Shown: piece by piece, positions 44,866 through 53,089 of the stretch
Numbering within the stretch: position 1 is the first letter of the stretch
Layout of the letters: each line of letters begins with the position of its first letter
DNA from: Roseitalea sp.
Lineage (GTDB): Bacteria; Pseudomonadota; Alphaproteobacteria; Rhizobiales; Rhizobiaceae
NCBI GenBank assembly: GCA_017642895.1
Contig: JAEPON010000002.1
Span: 310,001 to 374,000 of the forward strand
DNA: 64,000 bases
Reading direction: 5' to 3'
Translations under genes and position numbers: made by a program
The notes under the pieces: model-generated
Told to the model about the DNA's origin: nothing
Seen by the model: the letters and a program-made list of their open reading frames with translations, nothing else
Databases searched by the model: none

Positions 44866-47502
44866 TCAAAAGGCCGGTTTGGTCTGGCGGCGGCGTTGCA
44901 GCATGATGACGACACCAAGCAACAGCAGGGCGGGAATGTAAAACACCTGCGCCGGCATGCGTTGGTTGGGTACCTGAACCGAAGCCAGTTCCACCGGCGT
45001 ATCGGAATAAAAGTCGAAATCGGCGAGCTTCTCGGCGGTTTCGGTGCCGAACATCGGTTCGTCCATACGCACCGTATCACCATCGGGGATCAGAAGAAGG
45101 CCCGAATTGGCGACCCGTTCGGTCGCCGATGCGCCCTCGGCATACATGACGAGCGTCGTCTCGGCCGTCTCGCCCGTGTTGAAGTCGGGTCCGCGCACCA
45201 GAAGCCGGATGCGGTCACCTTCCGCCACATCGCCGACCACCTGCTCGAACTGCGCGGGCGGCACGTCCCGATAGGGGCTTTGCACCATGTTGAGCCAGAC
45301 ATTGGGGACAAACAGGGTGAAGGCGACCAGCAGCAGCGCCGCGCTTTCATAAAAGCGCGACCGGGCGAGGAAATAGCCTTGGGTCGCCGCCGCAAACAGC
45401 AGCATGGCGAACGTCGCCGTGATGAAGACGAACACCGCCTGCGCAATGCCCTCCCATGTCCCCAGATCGACGCCGTAAAGGATCAGCGTCGGATTGAAAA
45501 TGAACAGGAACGGCAGCGCCACCGTGCGCAGGCTGTAAAAGAAGGCTGTGAAGCCGGTCTTGATCGGATCGCCGCCCGATACGGCAGCCGCGGCGAAACT
45601 GGCAAGGCCCACCGGTGGCGTCACATCGGCCATGATGCCGAAATAAAAGACAAACAGATGCGCCGCGATTAGCGGCACGATCAGGCCCTCCTGTGCGCCG
45701 AGCGAGACGACGACCGACGCCATCAGCGACGAGACGACGATATAGTTGGCCGTCGTCGGCAGCCCCATGCCGAGGATCAGCGAGAAGATCGCGATCAGCA
45801 CCAGCATGATGAGAAGGATGCCACCCGAAAGCTGTTCGACCAGGCCGGCCAGTTCCGTGCCGATCGGGGTCTTGGTGACGGTGGCGACGATGATGCCGGC
45901 GGCCGCCGTGGCAACGCCGATGCCGATCATGTTGCGAGCGCCGGCGATCAGCCCCTCGCGCAAGTCGACCAGACCGCCCGTGAACTCGGCCATCATCTGC
46001 CCGCCTTCGCCGCGGAACATCGCTTTCAGAGGCCGTTGCGTGACGATGATCAGCAGCATGAGCGAAGTGGCATAAAAGGCCGACTTGGCCGGGCTTTGGC
46101 GCTCGACCATCAGGAACCAGATCAGGACGACAATGGGCAGCACATAGTGAAGGCCCGTCGCATAGACCTCGCCCACCGTCGGCAGCTTGAATTCGCCCTC
46201 GTTCGGGTCGTCGATCTCAAGGTCCGGCCGGCGCGATGCGACCATCACAAGACCGATGTAAAGCGCGATCAGGACGATCATCATGATCGGCGCGGTCAGG
46301 TCGGGCAGCGCCGTCTCCAGCGCATCGACGCCGTAGATCAGCGCGGTGAACGCGACGCCGGCAATGATGAAGCCAAGCAGGAACTTGGCCAGCATGGCTG
46401 TCATGGACTTGGATTCGCCCAGCGCCGGCATGTCCTTTTTCAGCGCTTCCAGGTGCACGATGTAGACGAGCGCGATGTAGGAAATCACCGCCGGGATGAA
46501 GGCGTGCTTGATCACCTCGACATAGGGAATGCCGATGAATTCGACCATCAGGAACGCGGCCGCGCCCATCACCGGCGGCATGATCTGCCCGTTGACGGAC
46601 GAGGCGACTTCCACCGATCCGGCCTGCTCGTTGGTGAAGCCCACCCGCTTCATCAGCGGGATCGTGAACGTGCCGGTGGTGACGACATTGGCGATCGACG
46701 AGCCGGAGATGACGCCGGTCATCGCCGATCCCACGACGGCGGCCTTGGCCGGCCCGCCGCGCAGATGGCCAAGACCGGCAAAGGCCAGCTTGATGAAATA
46801 ATTGCCGGCGCCGGCCTTGTCGAGCAGCGAGCCGAACAGGACGAACAGGAAGACAAACGCGGTCGAAACGCCCAGCGGAATGCCGAAGACGCCGCCCGTA
46901 TCCAGCCACTGGGCGTTGATCAGCGCGGTGAACGACAGGCCCTCATGCTCAATCAGATCGGGGATCAGGATTCCCTGGCCGAAATAGGCGTAGGCAAGGA
47001 ACAGCGAGCCGACGACCGTGAGCGCCGGGCCGAGCGCCCGCCGGCTGGCCTCGAGCAGGACGACGAGGCCGACCGCGCCGATGATGACCTGGTCGGTCTC
47101 TGGTAGACCGGAGCGGGCACTTAGCGCCAACTTATCGGAGAAGAGGAAAACGTAGAAGGCACAGTAACCGGCGATCGCCGCCAGAACCCAGTCGAAAATG
47201 GGGATGTGGTGGCGCGGCGAGGATTTGAGCGCCGGATAGGCCAGAAACGCCAGCACGACGGCGAAGGTGAGATGGATCGGCCGTGTCTGCGACGAGTTGA
47301 GCACCGGCAGATATTCGCCGAACCACAATTGCGGCTGCGCGATCCAGAGCTGGAACAGCGACCAGACCAGCGCCAGGCCGGCGATCAGCCCGGCCACCGT
47401 CTTGTTGGTCGGTGCCCGCGCGCCGCTGTCGGCGCTGGCCACCAGATCCTGCAGTTCCTCGTCGGTATATTGCCTGCCTTGGCTTCCGGTCGCTTCACTC
47501 AT
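44866..47502 (-). CDS. TRAP-TAXI transporter fused membrane subunit
   Basis: An 878-residue protein fusing the small four-helix and large twelve-helix TRAP subunits, as usual for the TAXI group. The large-subunit core contains GAGNYFIKLAFAGLGHLRGGPAKAAVVGSAMTGVISGSSIANVVTTGTFTIPLMKRVGF and ILGMGLPTTANYIV. The last 180 residues (after LNMVQSPYRDVPP) form an extracytoplasmic DUF3394-type domain closed by a final helix. Transport is driven by a sodium or proton gradient with the TAXI receptor encoded upstream. The ATG at 47502 is preferred over the upstream frame because the family's N-terminal region begins there. Confidence 0.93.
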   Translation of the reverse strand: MSEATGSQGRQYTDEELQDLVASADSGARAPTNKTVAGLIAGLALVWSLFQLWIAQPQLWFGEYLPVLNSSQTRPIHLTFAVVLAFLAYPALKSSPRHHIPIFDWVLAAIAGYCAFYVFLFSDKLALSARSGLPETDQVIIGAVGLVVLLEASRRALGPALTVVGSLFLAYAYFGQGILIPDLIEHEGLSFTALINAQWLDTGGVFGIPLGVSTAFVFLFVLFGSLLDKAGAGNYFIKLAFAGLGHLRGGPAKAAVVGSAMTGVISGSSIANVVTTGTFTIPLMKRVGFTNEQAGSVEVASSVNGQIMPPVMGAAAFLMVEFIGIPYVEVIKHAFIPAVISYIALVYIVHLEALKKDMPALGESKSMTAMLAKFLLGFIIAGVAFTALIYGVDALETALPDLTAPIMMIVLIALYIGLVMVASRRPDLEIDDPNEGEFKLPTVGEVYATGLHYVLPIVVLIWFLMVERQSPAKSAFYATSLMLLIIVTQRPLKAMFRGEGGQMMAEFTGGLVDLREGLIAGARNMIGIGVATAAAGIIVATVTKTPIGTELAGLVEQLSGGILLIMLVLIAIFSLILGMGLPTTANYIVVSSLMASVVVSLGAQEGLIVPLIAAHLFVFYFGIMADVTPPVGLASFAAAAVSGGDPIKTGFTAFFYSLRTVALPFLFIFNPTLILYGVDLGTWEGIAQAVFVFITATFAMLLFAAATQGYFLARSRFYESAALLLVAFTLFVPNVWLNMVQSPYRDVPPAQFEQVVGDVAEGDRIRLLVRGPDFNTGETAETTLVMYAEGASATERVANSGLLLIPDGDTVRMDEPMFGTETAEKLADFDFYSDTPVELASVQVPNQRMPAQVFYIPALLLLGVVIMLQRRRQTKPAF

Positions 47503-47527
47503 CGCACGCCCCCGCAATATCGGTCCC

Positions 47528-47566
47528 AAAAGAAAAATCCGCGGCCGACGGAGCGCCGGCCGCGGA
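47528..47566 (-). terminator. Intrinsic terminator / attenuator between TAXI receptor and permease
   Basis: On the minus strand a perfect 10-bp stem (TCCGCGGCCG with CGGCCGCGGA, nine-base loop) is followed at once by TTTTTCTTTT. It lies 27 bases past the receptor stop and 26 bases before the permease start, inside the operon. Most transcripts would end here, leaving receptor in excess, with read-through for the permease. Confidence 0.85.
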
Positions 47567-47592
47567 CACCACTCAGTTCTTAAGGAGCATGA

Positions 47593-48561
47593 TCACTCGA
47601 TCAGGCCCGCTTCGCGGAAATAGCGCTCGGCGCCCGGATGCAGCGGCGCCGACAGGCCGTCATTGGCCATTTCCTCGGCGCTGAGATTGGCGAAGGCCGG
47701 GTGCAGGCCCTTGAACTGGTCAAGGTTCTCGAACACCGCCTTGACCACCACATAGACCGTCTCCTCTGGCACATCGGCCGAGGTGACGAAGGTGGCACCG
47801 ACGCCGAAGGTCGTCGTATCCTCATCATTGCCGCGATACATGCCGCCCGGGATCGTCGCCGTGCGATAATAGGGCCGCTCTTCGACCAGGCCGTTGACCG
47901 CATCATTGGAGACATCCACCAGCACGCTGTCGCAGGCCGTGGTCGCTTCCTGGATCGAGCCGGACGGGTGGCCGACCGTGTAGATCATGGCGTCGATATT
48001 GTTGTCGCACAGCGCCTGGCTCTGCTCGGCGGCCTGCAACTCCGATGCAAGGGCGAAATCGTCCATGGTCCAGCCCATGGCTTCCATCACCACTTCCATC
48101 GTGCCGCGCTGACCCGAACCGGGATTGCCGACATTGACGCGCTTGCCCTGCAGGTCCTCGAACGTTTCGATGCCCGCATCGGCCCGCGCCACCACCGTGA
48201 ACGGCTCCGGATGAACCGAGAAGACTGCCCGCAATCCCTCGAACGCGCCCTGCTCTTCGAACCGTGACGAGCCGTTGAAGGCATGGAACTGCCAGTCGGA
48301 CTGGGCCACGCCGAACTCAAGCTCTCCATTGCGGATGGCGTTGATGTTGAACACCGAACCGCCGGTCGATTCCACGCCGCACCGAATGCCATGTTCCGCG
48401 CGATCGCGGTTGACCAGCCGGCAGATCGCACCGCCGGTCGGATAATAAACCCCGGTCACGCCGCCAGTACCGATCGCGATAAAACTATCCTGCGCATAGG
48501 CTGCGCCCGCTGCGAGCGCCGTTGCCGTTGCAACCAGCACGCCCATCATCTTGTTTCTCAT
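47593..48561 (-). CDS. TAXI-family TRAP transporter solute receptor
   Basis: A 322-residue periplasmic receptor with a signal peptide ending at AAYAQDS. Family hallmarks are [51 protein letters not shown] and the [23 protein letters not shown] segment. The ATG at 48561 is preceded by GGGAG. TAXI ligands are known for few members (glutamate and related dicarboxylates among them). First gene of the TRAP-TAXI operon. Confidence 0.93.
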
Positions 48562-48771
48562 TGCGCGAACTCCCTGTTTCAAGGCCGCAATGACAATTGC
48601 GGCTCCTGGACAACATCGAATAATGAGCCGTCCGTCAAGTCGGCTTCAAACAGTTGACGTGTTGCTCCAAAACCCCTCGTTTTACTAACCTTACGTCAGT
48701 TCAATGCCATGGGTTCCGCTTCGATAACACTTGCCCGGGCGTGCGGCGGTCGACGCCCGCAGGTCCGGGCT
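48562..48771. promoter_or_regulatory. Promoter region of the TRAP-TAXI operon
   Basis: These 210 bases lie between the end of the marR gene and the TAXI receptor start, both on the minus strand. The region is visibly richer in A and T than its neighbours. On the minus strand TTGACG (complement of 48637-48642) followed 17 bases later by TGTTGT is a weak -35/-10 candidate. No operator or gene stands out. Confidence 0.3.
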
Positions 48772-49278
48772 TCAAGGTCGCGCCGGATCGTCGGCCGGGA
48801 TCGGGCAGTCGGTGCAGGCGCGGTCATCGCACAGCCGGCAAAGCGCGCGGCGTTCGGCTGGCGTCGTTTCCATGGATGACAACATCTTGTGCAGCAGCAT
48901 GCCCAACTGCTCCTGCTCAAGCCCGGTCAAGGGCGCCAAAAGCGGCCGGATGGCGGCAAGGCGGCCCTTCAGAAGGTCTTCGCGGACAGCATGGCCACGC
49001 GCGCTGAGATAAAGCGCGATCGCCCGCCTGTCACGCCCTTGACGACGCTCGACAAGGCCATCGGCGACCAGCCGGTCGATGAGGCGCACGGTTCCCGGAT
49101 GCGACAGGCCCAGGACACGCCGCAACTGATCGTTGGACGGGCCGGTGCCGTGCCCGATGACCACGAGGGCGGCCGGCGTCTCCCCTGCACGACCGAGAAC
49201 GTCGCGTGCCGTCTCTTCAATGCGGTTCGCGACGTCGAGCCCGACGACGCCGAGCAGATTTGCGGTCCGGTCAGTCAT
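48772..49278 (-). CDS. MarR-family regulator with C-terminal four-cysteine motif
   Basis: A 168-residue winged-helix protein: NDQLRRVLGLSHPGTVRLIDRLVADGLVERRQGRDRRAIALYLSARG is the MarR recognition helix and wing. The tail carries four cysteines, C147, C150, C155 and C158 (CxxC-x4-CxxC), in CRLCDDRACTDCP, suited to bind a metal or to react with oxidants or alkylating agents. The ATG at 49278 starts the family's first helix. Ten bases upstream lies a TATGTGCGC-type palindrome, repeated before ogt and before the GNAT gene, so this protein very likely controls all three. Confidence 0.88.
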   Translation of the reverse strand: MTDRTANLLGVVGLDVANRIEETARDVLGRAGETPAALVVIGHGTGPSNDQLRRVLGLSHPGTVRLIDRLVADGLVERRQGRDRRAIALYLSARGHAVREDLLKGRLAAIRPLLAPLTGLEQEQLGMLLHKMLSSMETTPAERRALCRLCDDRACTDCPIPADDPARP

Positions 49279-49288
49279 GCCGGCAGAA

Positions 49289-49307
49289 TATGTGCGCCGC
49301 GCACGAT
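49289..49307. promoter_or_regulatory. MarR-type operator, copy 1 (upstream of marR)
   Basis: TATGTGCGCCGCGCACGAT, a 9+1+9 dyad with seven of nine positions paired, lies 10 bases ahead of the marR start. Same core as the perfect copy at 50515-50533. Confidence 0.7.
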
Positions 49308-49321
49308 CTTCAACTTGACCC

Positions 49322-49340
49322 TGTGTGTGGTGCGCACATA
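49322..49340. promoter_or_regulatory. MarR-type operator, copy 2 (upstream of ogt)
   Basis: The right half GCGCACATA is identical to the perfect copy, and the left half (TGTGTGTGG) matches six of nine. It lies 16 bases before the ogt start, where binding would block initiation. Together with copy 1 it fills the short divergent marR/ogt region. Confidence 0.65.
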
Positions 49341-49356
49341 GCCTTGGGGCCTGACC

Positions 49357-49920
49357 ATGGTGCATTTTTCGCTCTTCCCAACACCGCTTGGCGATTGCGG
49401 CATTGCCTGGCGCAGCAACGCGGTCGTCGCAACGCGCCTTCCGGACAAGAGCCCTGCTGAAACCGCCCGCCGTCTGGCGGCGAAGACAGGCGGAACGCGC
49501 GGCGAGCCGCCTGCTCTTGTCCGTCGGGCGATCGAGGCGATGACCGCGCTGCTTGAGGGCGAACGCGCCGATCTCACCGCCATCGGTTGCGATCTCGGCG
49601 GGGTCGATCCGTTCGCGGCGCAGGTCTATGCCGCAACGCGTGCGATCCCGGCCGGCGAGACATCGACCTATGGCGCCGTCGCATCGCAACTCGGCGACAA
49701 GCTGCTTGCCCGGGACGTCGGACAGGCCCTTGGCCGCAACCCGATACCGATCATCATACCGTGCCATCGAGTCGTCGGTGCCGGCGGCAAGCTCACCGGC
49801 TTTTCCGCCGCCGGCGGTGTGGCGACAAAGCTTCGCATGCTCACCATCGAGGGCGCACAATTGGGTGGCGAGCCCGGCCTGTTCGATGATCTTCCCCTCG
49901 CGACCAGGCCGCCAAAATGA
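49357..49920 (+). CDS. ogt: Methylated-DNA--protein-cysteine methyltransferase
   Basis: Suicide DNA-repair protein removing methyl groups from O6-methylguanine. The 187-residue product has the invariant I-P-C-H-R-V in PIIIPCHRVVGAGGKLTGFSA, the Cys being the acceptor, and the helix-turn-helix TYGAVASQLGDKLLARDVGQALGRNP. The N-terminal Ogt-like half is present, but there is no Ada-type regulatory domain. Divergent from marR with operators between; ends six bases from the convergent GNAT gene. Confidence 0.93.
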   Translation: MVHFSLFPTPLGDCGIAWRSNAVVATRLPDKSPAETARRLAAKTGGTRGEPPALVRRAIEAMTALLEGERADLTAIGCDLGGVDPFAAQVYAATRAIPAGETSTYGAVASQLGDKLLARDVGQALGRNPIPIIIPCHRVVGAGGKLTGFSAAGGVATKLRMLTIEGAQLGGEPGLFDDLPLATRPPK

Positions 49921-49926
49921 ATCGCT

Positions 49927-50489
49927 CTAGATGGTCAACGTCACCACCCACTTATGCTTGCCGATCTTCCGCGAGCGTTCAAAGCCAAGACGCTCGAAGG
50001 TCGAGAGCGCCCCGTTGAACAGGAACGCCGGCGACGCCTTCCGGCCCTCAATGTCCTCCGGATACCCCTCGATGCGCCCACCGCCCAGCTTTCCGATTTG
50101 CGCGACCGCACCTTCGAGCGCGACGGCCGCTACTCCTTTCCCGCGATACCCTTTGCCGGAAAAAAAGCAGGTGATTCGCCAGTCGGGGAGCGTCGGGGTG
50201 GTTTTCATGTAAGCGCGGCTGTTGTGGATTCGCGGCAATTCATCGGGCGAGCCGAACTGGCACCAGCCGACGCAATCCATGCCATCGAAAACGAGACTGG
50301 CATGCGCCCGTCCTTCCCGGACGCGGCATTCCTTCGCCTTGCGCTTGGCCTCGGTGGGCGCATCGGCGCCTTCCTTGCCGTGATACCACATGCACCAGCA
50401 GCCCCCCAGACACCATTGTTGGCCTCAACAAGACGCGCAAAGTCCGGCCAGGTGTCCTCATCCAGTGCTTTGGTTTCATAGCGCGACAT
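49927..50489 (-). pseudogene. GNAT-family acetyltransferase gene with a one-base frameshift
   Basis: The N-terminus (MSRYETKALDEDTWPDFARLVEANNGVWG, from the ATG at 50489) and the rest (CWCMWYHGKEG through VGWCQFGSPDELPRI, WRITCFFSGKGYRGKGVAAVALEGAV, KHKWVVTLTI) lie in two frames. The switch is at a run of six G on the minus strand (50402-50407). Seven G would restore the family's GVWGGCWCMW and give one 187-residue protein; the present length of 563 bases is exactly one short of a multiple of three. So it is either a recent frameshift, a phase-variable tract, or a homopolymer sequencing error. The acetyl-CoA loop is RGKGVA. A perfect MarR-type operator precedes it. Confidence 0.85.
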
Positions 50490-50514
50490 GGGCTTCCCCG
50501 GGTTCAGTCGCAAT

Positions 50515-50533
50515 TATGTGCGCTGCGCACATA
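50515..50533. promoter_or_regulatory. MarR-type operator, copy 3 (upstream of the GNAT gene)
   Basis: TATGTGCGCTGCGCACATA is a perfect 9+1+9 palindrome, 25 bases upstream of the GNAT start. It is the best copy of the motif and defines the consensus for copies 1 and 2. Confidence 0.8.
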
Positions 50534-50618
50534 TCGTCAAGCTGAATGTCACACGCGCCATGCCGCACCACGGATGACTATGCCCCGTCGAGCCATATGG
50601 CGAACGCGGCAGGCGCCG

Positions 50619-52208
50619 TCAGATCGGGCGTTCAACGGCGCCCGGAACGCGGGGAACCGCATCCAGCAATCGCCGCGTATAGGCGTGGCTGGGCGCCGCA
50701 AAAAGATCGGCGCAATCGGCCCGCTCGACCACGCGCCCGTCCTTCATGACCACGGCGCGATCGGCGAGCGCTTCGATCACGCCCATATCGTGGCTGACGA
50801 ACAGGCACGAAAACCCCAACCGCTCGCGCAGGTCGGCGAGCAGCGTCAGCACCTCTTTCTGAACGGTCAGATCGAGCGCCGAGACGGGTTCGTCGGCGAC
50901 GACGAAACGCGGATGCGTGACAAGCGCCCGCGCGATGCACACGCGCTGGCGCTGGCCGCCGGACAACTCATGCGGCAGCCGGGCACCATAGGTGTCGAGC
51001 GGCAATTGCACACCGTCCAGTATCTCGCGCAGACGCTTTTCGCCTTCGGTGCCTTTGGGGCCGAACCGGCGCAAACCGGCGGAAACGATGCGCGCGACCG
51101 TCATGCGCGGATCAAGGCTGGCATAGGGGTCCTGGAAGATGATCTGCATGCGTCGCCGGAAGTCGGGCGGACGGGGCGCCCCATCGAGGCGAATTTCTCC
51201 GGCCTTCATCGGTGCAAGGCCGACCAGAGCGCGCCCGAGTGTCGTCTTGCCGGACCCGCTTTCCCCGACGAGGCCGACGATCTCCCCTTCCCTGATCTCG
51301 ATATCGACATTATCGACGGCGACCACCGGCGCCGGTCGCGACCATGGCAGCTTGCGCCGGCCTTCAAAGACGACGCGCACGCCCCTGGCCGCGACAACGG
51401 GCGGCGTGGCCGCGCGCCGCCCCTTGCGCGGGGTCGGCAAGGCATCGACCAGACGCTTCGTGTAAGGATCGCGCGGCGCGGTCAGGATCTGTCCGGTCTT
51501 GCCTGTCTCGACGGCGCGGCCGGACTGCAGGATCACCGCTTCATTCGTGTGCTGGGCGACCAGCGGCAGATCGTGGCTGACAAGGATCAGCGCAGTGCCC
51601 TCTTCCTCGACCAGGCGCGACATCAGATCCATCACCTCTTTCTGGATCACGGCATCGAGCGCGGTCGTCGGTTCGTCGGCGATCAACAGGGCCGGACGCA
51701 TCATCAGCACCGAAGCGAGCATGATGCGCTGGCGCATGCCGCCCGAAAACTCGTGCGGATGACGCGCCAGCGCGCCCGCCGGATCGCGCAACTGCACACG
51801 CTCGAGCATCTGGCGGGCGGCGCGTTCGGCGTCGGCCCGTGTCAGGCCCTGCTGATGCATCGGCCCCTCGGTCATCTGCCGGCCGACCGTCAGCGAAGGG
51901 TTGAGCGATGTCATCGGCTCCTGGAAGACCATGCCGATGCGGCTCCCTCGCACCGCGCGCATCGCGGCCGGCTCGAGCGTCAAAAGGTCCTCTCCGTCAA
52001 AGAGGATGCGTCCGCCGACAATCCGCGCACCGGGCGGCAGAAGATTGAGGATCGCCCGCCCGATCATCGTCTTGCCGGACCCGCTTTCGCCGATCAGGCC
52101 GAGACGTCCCTTAGCCGGCACCGAAAAGGACACATCGTCCACAACGCGGCGCGGACCGTCCGGCGTGTCGAATGCAATGGTCAGTCCCTCGACGGACACA
52201 AGCGTCAT
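50619..52208 (-). CDS. Dipeptide/oligopeptide-type ABC ATPase, two domains fused (DppD-DppF)
   Basis: A 529-residue protein with two full ATPase domains. The first has [24 protein letters not shown] and [12 protein letters not shown]; the second has [29 protein letters not shown] and [12 protein letters not shown]. The order DppD-like then DppF-like fits fused peptide-importer ATPases. The ATG at 52208 overlaps the upstream permease stop. It lets one polypeptide serve the two permeases. Last gene of the minus-strand C45 / Dpp operon. Confidence 0.92.
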
Positions 52209-53089
52209 GGCCGCACATCCAGTCCGCGCATGCGCGGGTCTAGCCGGTCGCGCAGGGCATCGCCGAAAATATTGATGCCCAGAAGCGCGATCGAGATCGC
52301 AAGGCCCGGAAAGATCGCAAGCCAGGGCGCGGTGACGAAATCGCCGCGCGATTCGGCCAGCATGTTGCCCCAGGTCGGCGCCGGCGGCGGAATGCCGAGA
52401 CCCAGAAAGCTCAGCGCGCTTTCTGCCAGCAGCGCCGAGCCGAACAGGGCCGTGCCCATCACGATGAGCGGCGCCGTGCAATTGGGCAGCACATGGCGAA
52501 AGAGCGTATAGAGCGCCGGATCACCGACGGCACGCGAGGCCTCGACGAACTCGCGCTCGCGCACCGACAGAACCGTCCCGCGCACGAGCCTCAAAACCGA
52601 CGGCGCATAAGACAGGCCGAGCGCGACGATCACACCCAACTGTGATGGCCCGGCAACAGCCATCACCGCCAGCGCCAAAAGCAGCCCCGGAAACGCCAGC
52701 AGTGCGTCGGTCAGCAGCATGACGAGCCGGTCGGCCCACCCGCCAAAATAACCCGAAAGACCACCAACGATGGTGCCGACGCTGACGGCCAGCGCGACCG
52801 TTGCCAGGGCGACGGTGACCGACGCGCGCGCGCCGGCGACAATGCGGGAGAAGACGTCACGCCCCCATTGGTCGGTGCCCATCAGGTGCGCCAGGGACGG
52901 CGCCTCGAAGCGCTTGAGGAAATTCGGTTCCACCGGATCGTAGGGCACCCAGATATAGCCCATCAGTGCACCGATCAGGACGATGGCCAGCAAAGCCGCG
53001 CCCACCGTGCCGTTGATCTGCCGCAGGAACCAGGGACGGCGCTGGCGCCCTCGCCGATCGGGTATCCGGGTTTCGGCTTCAAGCGTCAT
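52205..53089 (-). CDS. Dipeptide-type ABC permease (DppC-like)
   Basis: A 294-residue permease with the DppC N-terminal motif [34 protein letters not shown] and the EAA loop [23 protein letters not shown]. About six helices. Start at 53089 overlaps the DppB-like stop (ATGA), and its own stop overlaps the ATPase start. Confidence 0.92.

Follow-up and report, generated by a model that had tools for sequence, protein, structure and literature searches.

A MarR regulator with a conserved four-cysteine tail and its predicted shared operators at an ogt locus of Roseitalea sp.

Which genes are served by a MarR regulator that ends in four cysteines, and what might those cysteines sense? The question is raised by a stretch of 64,000 nucleotides from Roseitalea sp. 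(hereafter the window), in which marR stands divergent to ogt and a GNAT-like gene runs convergent to ogt (Table 1). A sequence-only reading of this DNA had proposed that one palindromic operator is shared by the three genes, and that the cysteine cluster senses alkylating or electrophilic damage. The cassette is flanked on one side by a TRAP-type transporter with an NMT1-like binding protein (44866-48582) and on the other by a two-domain oligopeptide ABC ATPase (50619-52481).

Table 1 Features of the cassette, in positions of the window.
Feature	Position	Strand	Basis and remarks
marR gene, 168 aa	48772..49278 including stop codon (48775-49278 without)	-	ORF, translation, profile match
Tail codons C147-x2-C150-x4-C155-x2-C158	48805..48840	-	coordinates computed from reading frame
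marR promoter (by eye): TTGAAG, 15 nt, CATATT, around marR-side operator	49287..49313	-	absent from promoter scan
marR-side operator (predicted)	49289..49307		3 mismatches to perfect palindrome
ogt promoter (by eye): TTGACC, 16 nt, CATAGC, around ogt-side operator	49315..49342	+	absent from promoter scan
ogt-side operator (predicted)	49322..49340		3 mismatches to perfect palindrome, 2 to relaxed one
ogt, O6-alkylguanine-DNA alkyltransferase with PCHR	49357..49920	+	profile matches, PCHR motif
GNAT-like gene, convergent to ogt, start at 50489	49927..50489	-	1-nt frame shift in run 50402-50407
GNAT-like gene promoter: TTGACG, 16 nt, CATAAT; operator in spacer and over -10	50513..50540	-	promoter scan
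Operator before GNAT-like gene (predicted)	50515..50533		perfect palindrome, 0 mismatches

By its profile and fold matches the regulator is a MarR protein. A Pfam scan places it in the family through MarR_2 (PF12802; 36.5 bits, cut-off 27), the older model PF01047 falls barely below its cut-off (24.5 bits, cut-off 24.6), and the top Foldseek fold matches (best 50 of 1537) are MarR proteins, the ligand-bound HucR among them. In translation the protein ends in ALCRLCDDRACTDCPIPADDPARP, and its sole cysteines are C147, C150, C155 and C158; the CxxC-x4-CxxC ending described earlier from the letters is therefore correct. All 43 PDB sequence matches end at or before residue 145 and the profile-based PDB matches (best 60 of 97) at or before profile position 144, in both cases ahead of C147. 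The Foldseek table (best 50 of 1537) carries no residue ranges, and coverage of the tail by the fold matches is not deducible from it. For residues 151-160 the AlphaFold2 block mean is 76, a confidence value given without coordinates. One conceivable role for the four cysteines is as ligands of an iron-sulphur cluster that would respond to oxidants or to nitric oxide. A tight group of cysteines with a final C-P presumably recalls ferredoxin-type ligands, and the oxidant-defence neighbours described below would suit such a cluster, but the tail has a spacing that we take not to be a standard Fe-S motif, and none of the PDB sequence matches above extends over it; we regard this role as very improbable.

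The palindrome TATGTGCGCNGCGCACATA was searched at up to 3 mismatches. The window contains three sites, one before each gene of the cassette, against a shuffled expectation of 0.09 on average, and none of 100 dinucleotide shuffles reached three. In the entire 4.33 Mb genome just those three sites were found, and the backwards control gave none. The palindrome is thus confirmed as real and specific, and its description as perfect before the GNAT-like gene and imperfect before marR and ogt is borne out.

Conservation was assessed in a close clade of 19 loci, comprising the window, L004-L018 and L032-L034, with the duplicates L027 (the L018 locus) and L031 (the L009 locus) removed. Close-clade regulators are 61-82% identical to that of the window in alignment A1 (L015, outside A1, is 75% identical by search match), and they group together in the tree with support 100/98. 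The palindrome is retained beside these orthologues: on the divergent side, 18 of the 19 loci have a site with 2 mismatches or fewer (the best in L018 has 5), and on the marR side 16 have one with 3 or fewer (the best has 4 in L011, 5 in L013 and 7 in L012). When up to 2 mismatches to TATGTGCGNNNCGCACATA are allowed, the 19 genomes yield 47 sites. The 28 closest of these, with 0 or 1 mismatch, all fall at the marR locus, and the 19 sites with 2 mismatches are divided between the locus (9) and elsewhere (10), with a backwards control of 6. Of 101 relatives, only G000 and G004, the two with a close orthologue, have a site with 0 or 1 mismatch; the three relatives with a distant homologue have none. 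From this distribution in the 19 genomes and the 101 relatives, the operator accompanies the regulator, whose regulon looks confined to the marR locus. A wider regulon was considered and is unsupported, since each of the off-locus sites (10 of 47) differs from the palindrome at 2 positions, and the backwards control turns up 6 sites in those genomes. Further afield, some distant members have variant forms of this palindrome as self-operators, for example TATGTGAGTGACTCACATA in L019 and TATATGCGCTGCGCATACA in L088, and in L028 and L041-L044 a self-operator palindrome is not evident.

The operators also occupy a fixed place within promoters. A sigma-70 scan of 48700-50650 returned one promoter (0.3 expected), the one on the GNAT side read from 50540 to 50513, and reported none for marR or ogt, whose promoters in Table 1 were placed by eye. 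When oriented toward the gene served, the operators share the frame CTTGAC-NN-[TATGTGCGNNNCGCACATA]-AT, in which the right half of the palindrome plus AT makes up a CATAAT-like -10. TTGAC stands 2 nt ahead of the palindrome at 17 of 19 divergent-side sites and at all 8 GNAT-side sites; the exceptions, both on the divergent side, are L017, with TTGAC off by 2 nt, and L013, in which the best-scoring site is without TTGAC. An overlapping -35 stretch, in most loci GTCAAGTTGAAA, is common to the divergent promoters and is flanked by an operator to either side; the two operators are spaced by 32-33 bp in most loci. Because the operators lie between -35 and -10 and overlap the -10, blocking of RNA polymerase would be the natural reading of how repression is achieved.

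We next consider the two genes that the regulator is predicted to serve besides its own. The ogt product matches PF01035 at 99.8 bits (cut-off 27) and TIGR00589 at 80.6 bits (cut-off 46.4), which places it in the Ogt/MGMT family; a second ogt-family gene of the same genome is present on contig C25. For the convergent gene the GNAT label is weak: the downstream half of the window's gene matched no Pfam or NCBIfam model, and in three relatives scanned, Acetyltransf_1 gave 22.0 and 20.7 bits (cut-off 20.7) in two and no match in one. Compared with all six aligned relatives, the window's gene has a frameshift of 1 nt in the run given in Table 1, which is either an artefact of assembly or a true lesion. 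These two points qualify the earlier description of the GNAT gene, the operator before it being confirmed.

The genes accompanying the regulator vary within the close clade. The first divergent gene is SnoaL-like at 10 of the 19 loci, DUF3237 at 6 and ogt at 3, and 9 loci have ogt no more than about 3 kb from marR; among the other ten, L017 and L033 are cut short by the contig end about 0.7 kb away on that side. Because ogt is near in 9 of 19 loci and comes first in 3, it is a frequent but not a defining client. Cassette copies of ogt are at least 63% identical to that of the window, whereas no other ogt match in the 101 relatives (E up to 1e-25) exceeds 51% identity to it, apart from a G004 copy at 66%. 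A GNAT-like gene is found at 11 of the 19 loci, together with a fragment in L011; in L016 it is 4.3-4.7 kb away and in the opposite orientation. An operator with at most 2 mismatches precedes it at 8 of these 11 loci and at none of L012, L013 and L016. Further genes include a PEP-mutase (L008), a glyoxalase-type (L016) and a PEMT/ICMT-type gene (L013). Taken together, the sites, their conservation and their placement support the proposal that a common operator would place marR, its divergent neighbour and the GNAT-like gene under one MarR.

The regulator is present in two of the five genomes of the genus, and the close clade covers many alphaproteobacterial families and two gammaproteobacterial bins (L012 and L013). 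This patchy and wide spread suggests horizontal transfer, with the caveat of bin contamination.

Separately, DUF3237, a domain of no known function, adjoins the regulator in two separate clades, at L005, L006, L007, L008 (2245-2859), L009, L012 and L013 and at L072, L076, L078 and L080; it offers a lead to the regulator's role.

Conservation of the tail was examined over a wider family. An alignment of 36 homologues, 35-82% identical to the window's protein, shows the four cysteines to be invariant, so that loss of the cysteines in close orthologues was not found; R148, P159 and eight more core residues are invariant as well. All 49 members of the tree set have the motif C-x2-C-x4-C-x2/4-C-P, and most of them are without ogt nearby. 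Alignment A1 was drawn up without L015, and the tree set without L089, which nearly duplicates L088, and without the second MarR paralogue on plasmid pFBAOT6; this extra paralogue has lost the second half of the motif. The weak matches L021-L025, in which the tail is absent, were excluded from the family counts. Since the tail could have selected itself in such searches, 372 genomes were also searched with residues 1-138 only. This gave at least 62 matches (homologue and genome-search counts are lower bounds, at most 9 to 11 candidates being scored per genome), of which 18 were at 60 bits or more and 44 at 39 bits or less. The motif is present in 15 of 15 fetched from the upper group (window included), the other three, L036, L046 and L047, being already known as tailed, and in 1 of 15 fetched from the lower group (L144). 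Because a core-only search separates tailed from ordinary MarRs, the tail appears to follow core phylogeny and is not general to MarRs; on these sequence comparisons, it is the mark of a MarR subfamily. Relatives at below 60% identity occur in 165 plasmid records, 116 of them predicted conjugative, and the tail was checked in the five plasmid regions that were opened.

These observations bear on the alkylation sensor that had been proposed at first, in which a tail cysteine would be methylated in the manner of Ada and so induce ogt. Four close cysteines do resemble a metal-thiolate that could be methylated, ogt is near marR at those 9 of 19 close loci, and it has an operator where it is the first divergent gene (window, L004). 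However, the tail is equally conserved where ogt is absent, and a SnoaL-like or DUF3237 gene comes first at most close loci. A cysteine link specific to alkylation or to ogt is thus unsupported, and alkylation-specific sensing, which we now hold to be improbable, was demoted because the tail is retained where ogt is not near.

What the tail might respond to instead was approached through the neighbours of distant members. The scan covered 46 loci, 28 of them distant, with queries drawn from neighbours already seen. At 19 of the 28 distant loci at least one listed neighbour type is present. DUF417/RclC-like genes adjoin eight distant members (L020, L068, L088, L090, L091, L092, L102 and L103), and four of these eight loci also have Msr, OsmC or GST genes. 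In E. coli the DUF417 proteins RclC and RcrB act in hypochlorous-acid resistance (PMC9600549). Beside four distant members there is a DUF3237 gene: L072 (with a glyoxalase), L076, L078 (with a SnoaL-like gene) and L080 (with a PEP mutase). Hydrolase or haloalkane-dehalogenase-like genes are found at four more (L019, L077, L079 and L083), that of L083 scoring above the NCBIfam haloalkane dehalogenase cut-off, and an arginase-family gene lies beside L070, L081 and L085. No listed type was found at the other 9 of 28 (L067, L069, L071, L073 and L104-L108; L071 has just a 26% OsmC match). On the tree the neighbour labels cluster, with 13 changes against a shuffled mean of 33.0; 19 of the 46 inner branches are open, and several rows of the tree are long. 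We treat the association as a pattern within the loci scanned, and not as an enrichment over ordinary MarRs. The neighbours across the family suggest thiol-reactive stress as the signal, and because of them a general thiol-stress signal appears more likely than sensing of DNA alkylation alone. The 'electrophilic damage' of the sequence-only reading is compatible with these neighbours.

Two clusters deserve separate mention. On plasmid pFBAOT6 (L091:1-12483) an island of oxidant-defence-like content holds DUF417, MsrA, MsrB, an OsmC-hydrolase, alcohol dehydrogenase and GST, together with two MarR genes of the tailed kind, one of them lacking half of the cysteine tail. In the clade of L070, L081 and L085 an arginase-family gene is followed directly, in the same orientation, by the tailed marR, ahead of which the search gave no good palindrome; this clade does not look like detoxification.

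Neighbours of such variety also bear on what we consider the best rival, namely that zinc bound by the tail is purely structural and that an ordinary small ligand in the MarR dimer cleft gives the signal, perhaps a substrate of a DUF3237 or SnoaL-like enzyme, with ogt a later passenger of the operon. A structural element would be retained whatever the neighbour, as the tail is, arginase-like genes included; the first divergent gene is DUF3237 or SnoaL-like at 16 of the 19 close loci; and ligand-bound MarRs such as HucR are among the top fold matches. Many of the neighbours handle reactive chemicals, however, and a common thiol signal fits them better than one ligand, which leaves this rival unlikely, if still to be taken seriously.

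We therefore favor, with roughly even confidence, a stress cassette in which the MarR represses marR, ogt and the GNAT-like gene through shared operators and thiol-reactive stress on the tail cysteines relieves this repression. The sequence itself shows operators that sit within promoters and are restricted to the locus, as well as a conserved tail; what we infer is binding, repression, metal in the tail, and oxidation or alkylation of its thiolates as the signal. Specifically, the MarR would bind copies of TATGTGCG-N3-CGCACATA between -35 and -10, overlapping the -10, and when bound would very likely repress marR itself along with its divergent neighbour, here ogt, and the convergent GNAT-like gene. 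The tail cysteines are probably metal-bound; the most likely trigger would be thiol-reactive stress (an oxidant, reactive chlorine or an electrophile, possibly also alkylators) acting on them, and the modified tail would release the promoters.

If true, control of ogt by this regulator would tie thiol-reactive stress to alkylation repair without Ada, and a four-cysteine tail, promoter-embedded operators and repeated pairing with oxidant or electrophile genes would together amount to a different sensor layout. More tentatively, and in our estimate with the odds against it, these proteins could constitute an undescribed MarR subfamily with a C-terminal Cys4 metal-thiolate sensor, disseminated on chromosomes and plasmids alike together with detoxification cassettes, one clade of which is tied to O6-alkylguanine repair as an Ada-independent route inducible by oxidants or electrophiles. 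The cassette is small and its operator defined, which makes the repression and sensing steps directly testable.

No account of a tailed MarR or of MarR control of ogt was found in the open-access literature searched. HypS of Mycobacterium smegmatis is reportedly a redox-sensing, hypochlorite-responsive repressor of the MarR type, which the present regulator would resemble in its proposed role. Ada is a transcription activator fused to an alkyltransferase. Like the Ada/ogt adaptive response, the cassette would give inducible control of an O6-alkylguanine alkyltransferase; unlike Ada, the regulator is a MarR protein distinct from the alkyltransferase, is predicted to repress, and has a tail that is not bound up with ogt. 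Identity with Ada was rejected, Pfam giving MarR models only for the regulator and no Ada zinc-binding or AraC-type domains. RclR and RcrR are not known to be MarR proteins. The tailed family is nevertheless set beside them by its DUF417 neighbours, since RclR-rclC and RcrR-rcrB, the reactive-chlorine systems of E. coli, involve control of DUF417 membrane proteins (PMC9600549), and DUF417 lies near eight distant tailed members; a chlorine response is a prediction here. Known MarRs of the thiol-sensing type, for example OhrR and EstR, rely on one or two cysteines, and EstR senses via Cys16 near the N-terminus and binds GTTATCGCGATAAC (PMC5201249). Membership in the OhrR/EstR group was rejected on that description, the first cysteine of the window's regulator being residue 147 as against Cys16 and the operator being different. 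Like OhrR and EstR, the cassette presents a predicted MarR repressor with a divergent target, two intergenic operators and, as proposed here, cysteine-based sensing, and unlike EstR it would do so with four tail cysteines in place of an N-terminal one and through a different palindrome.
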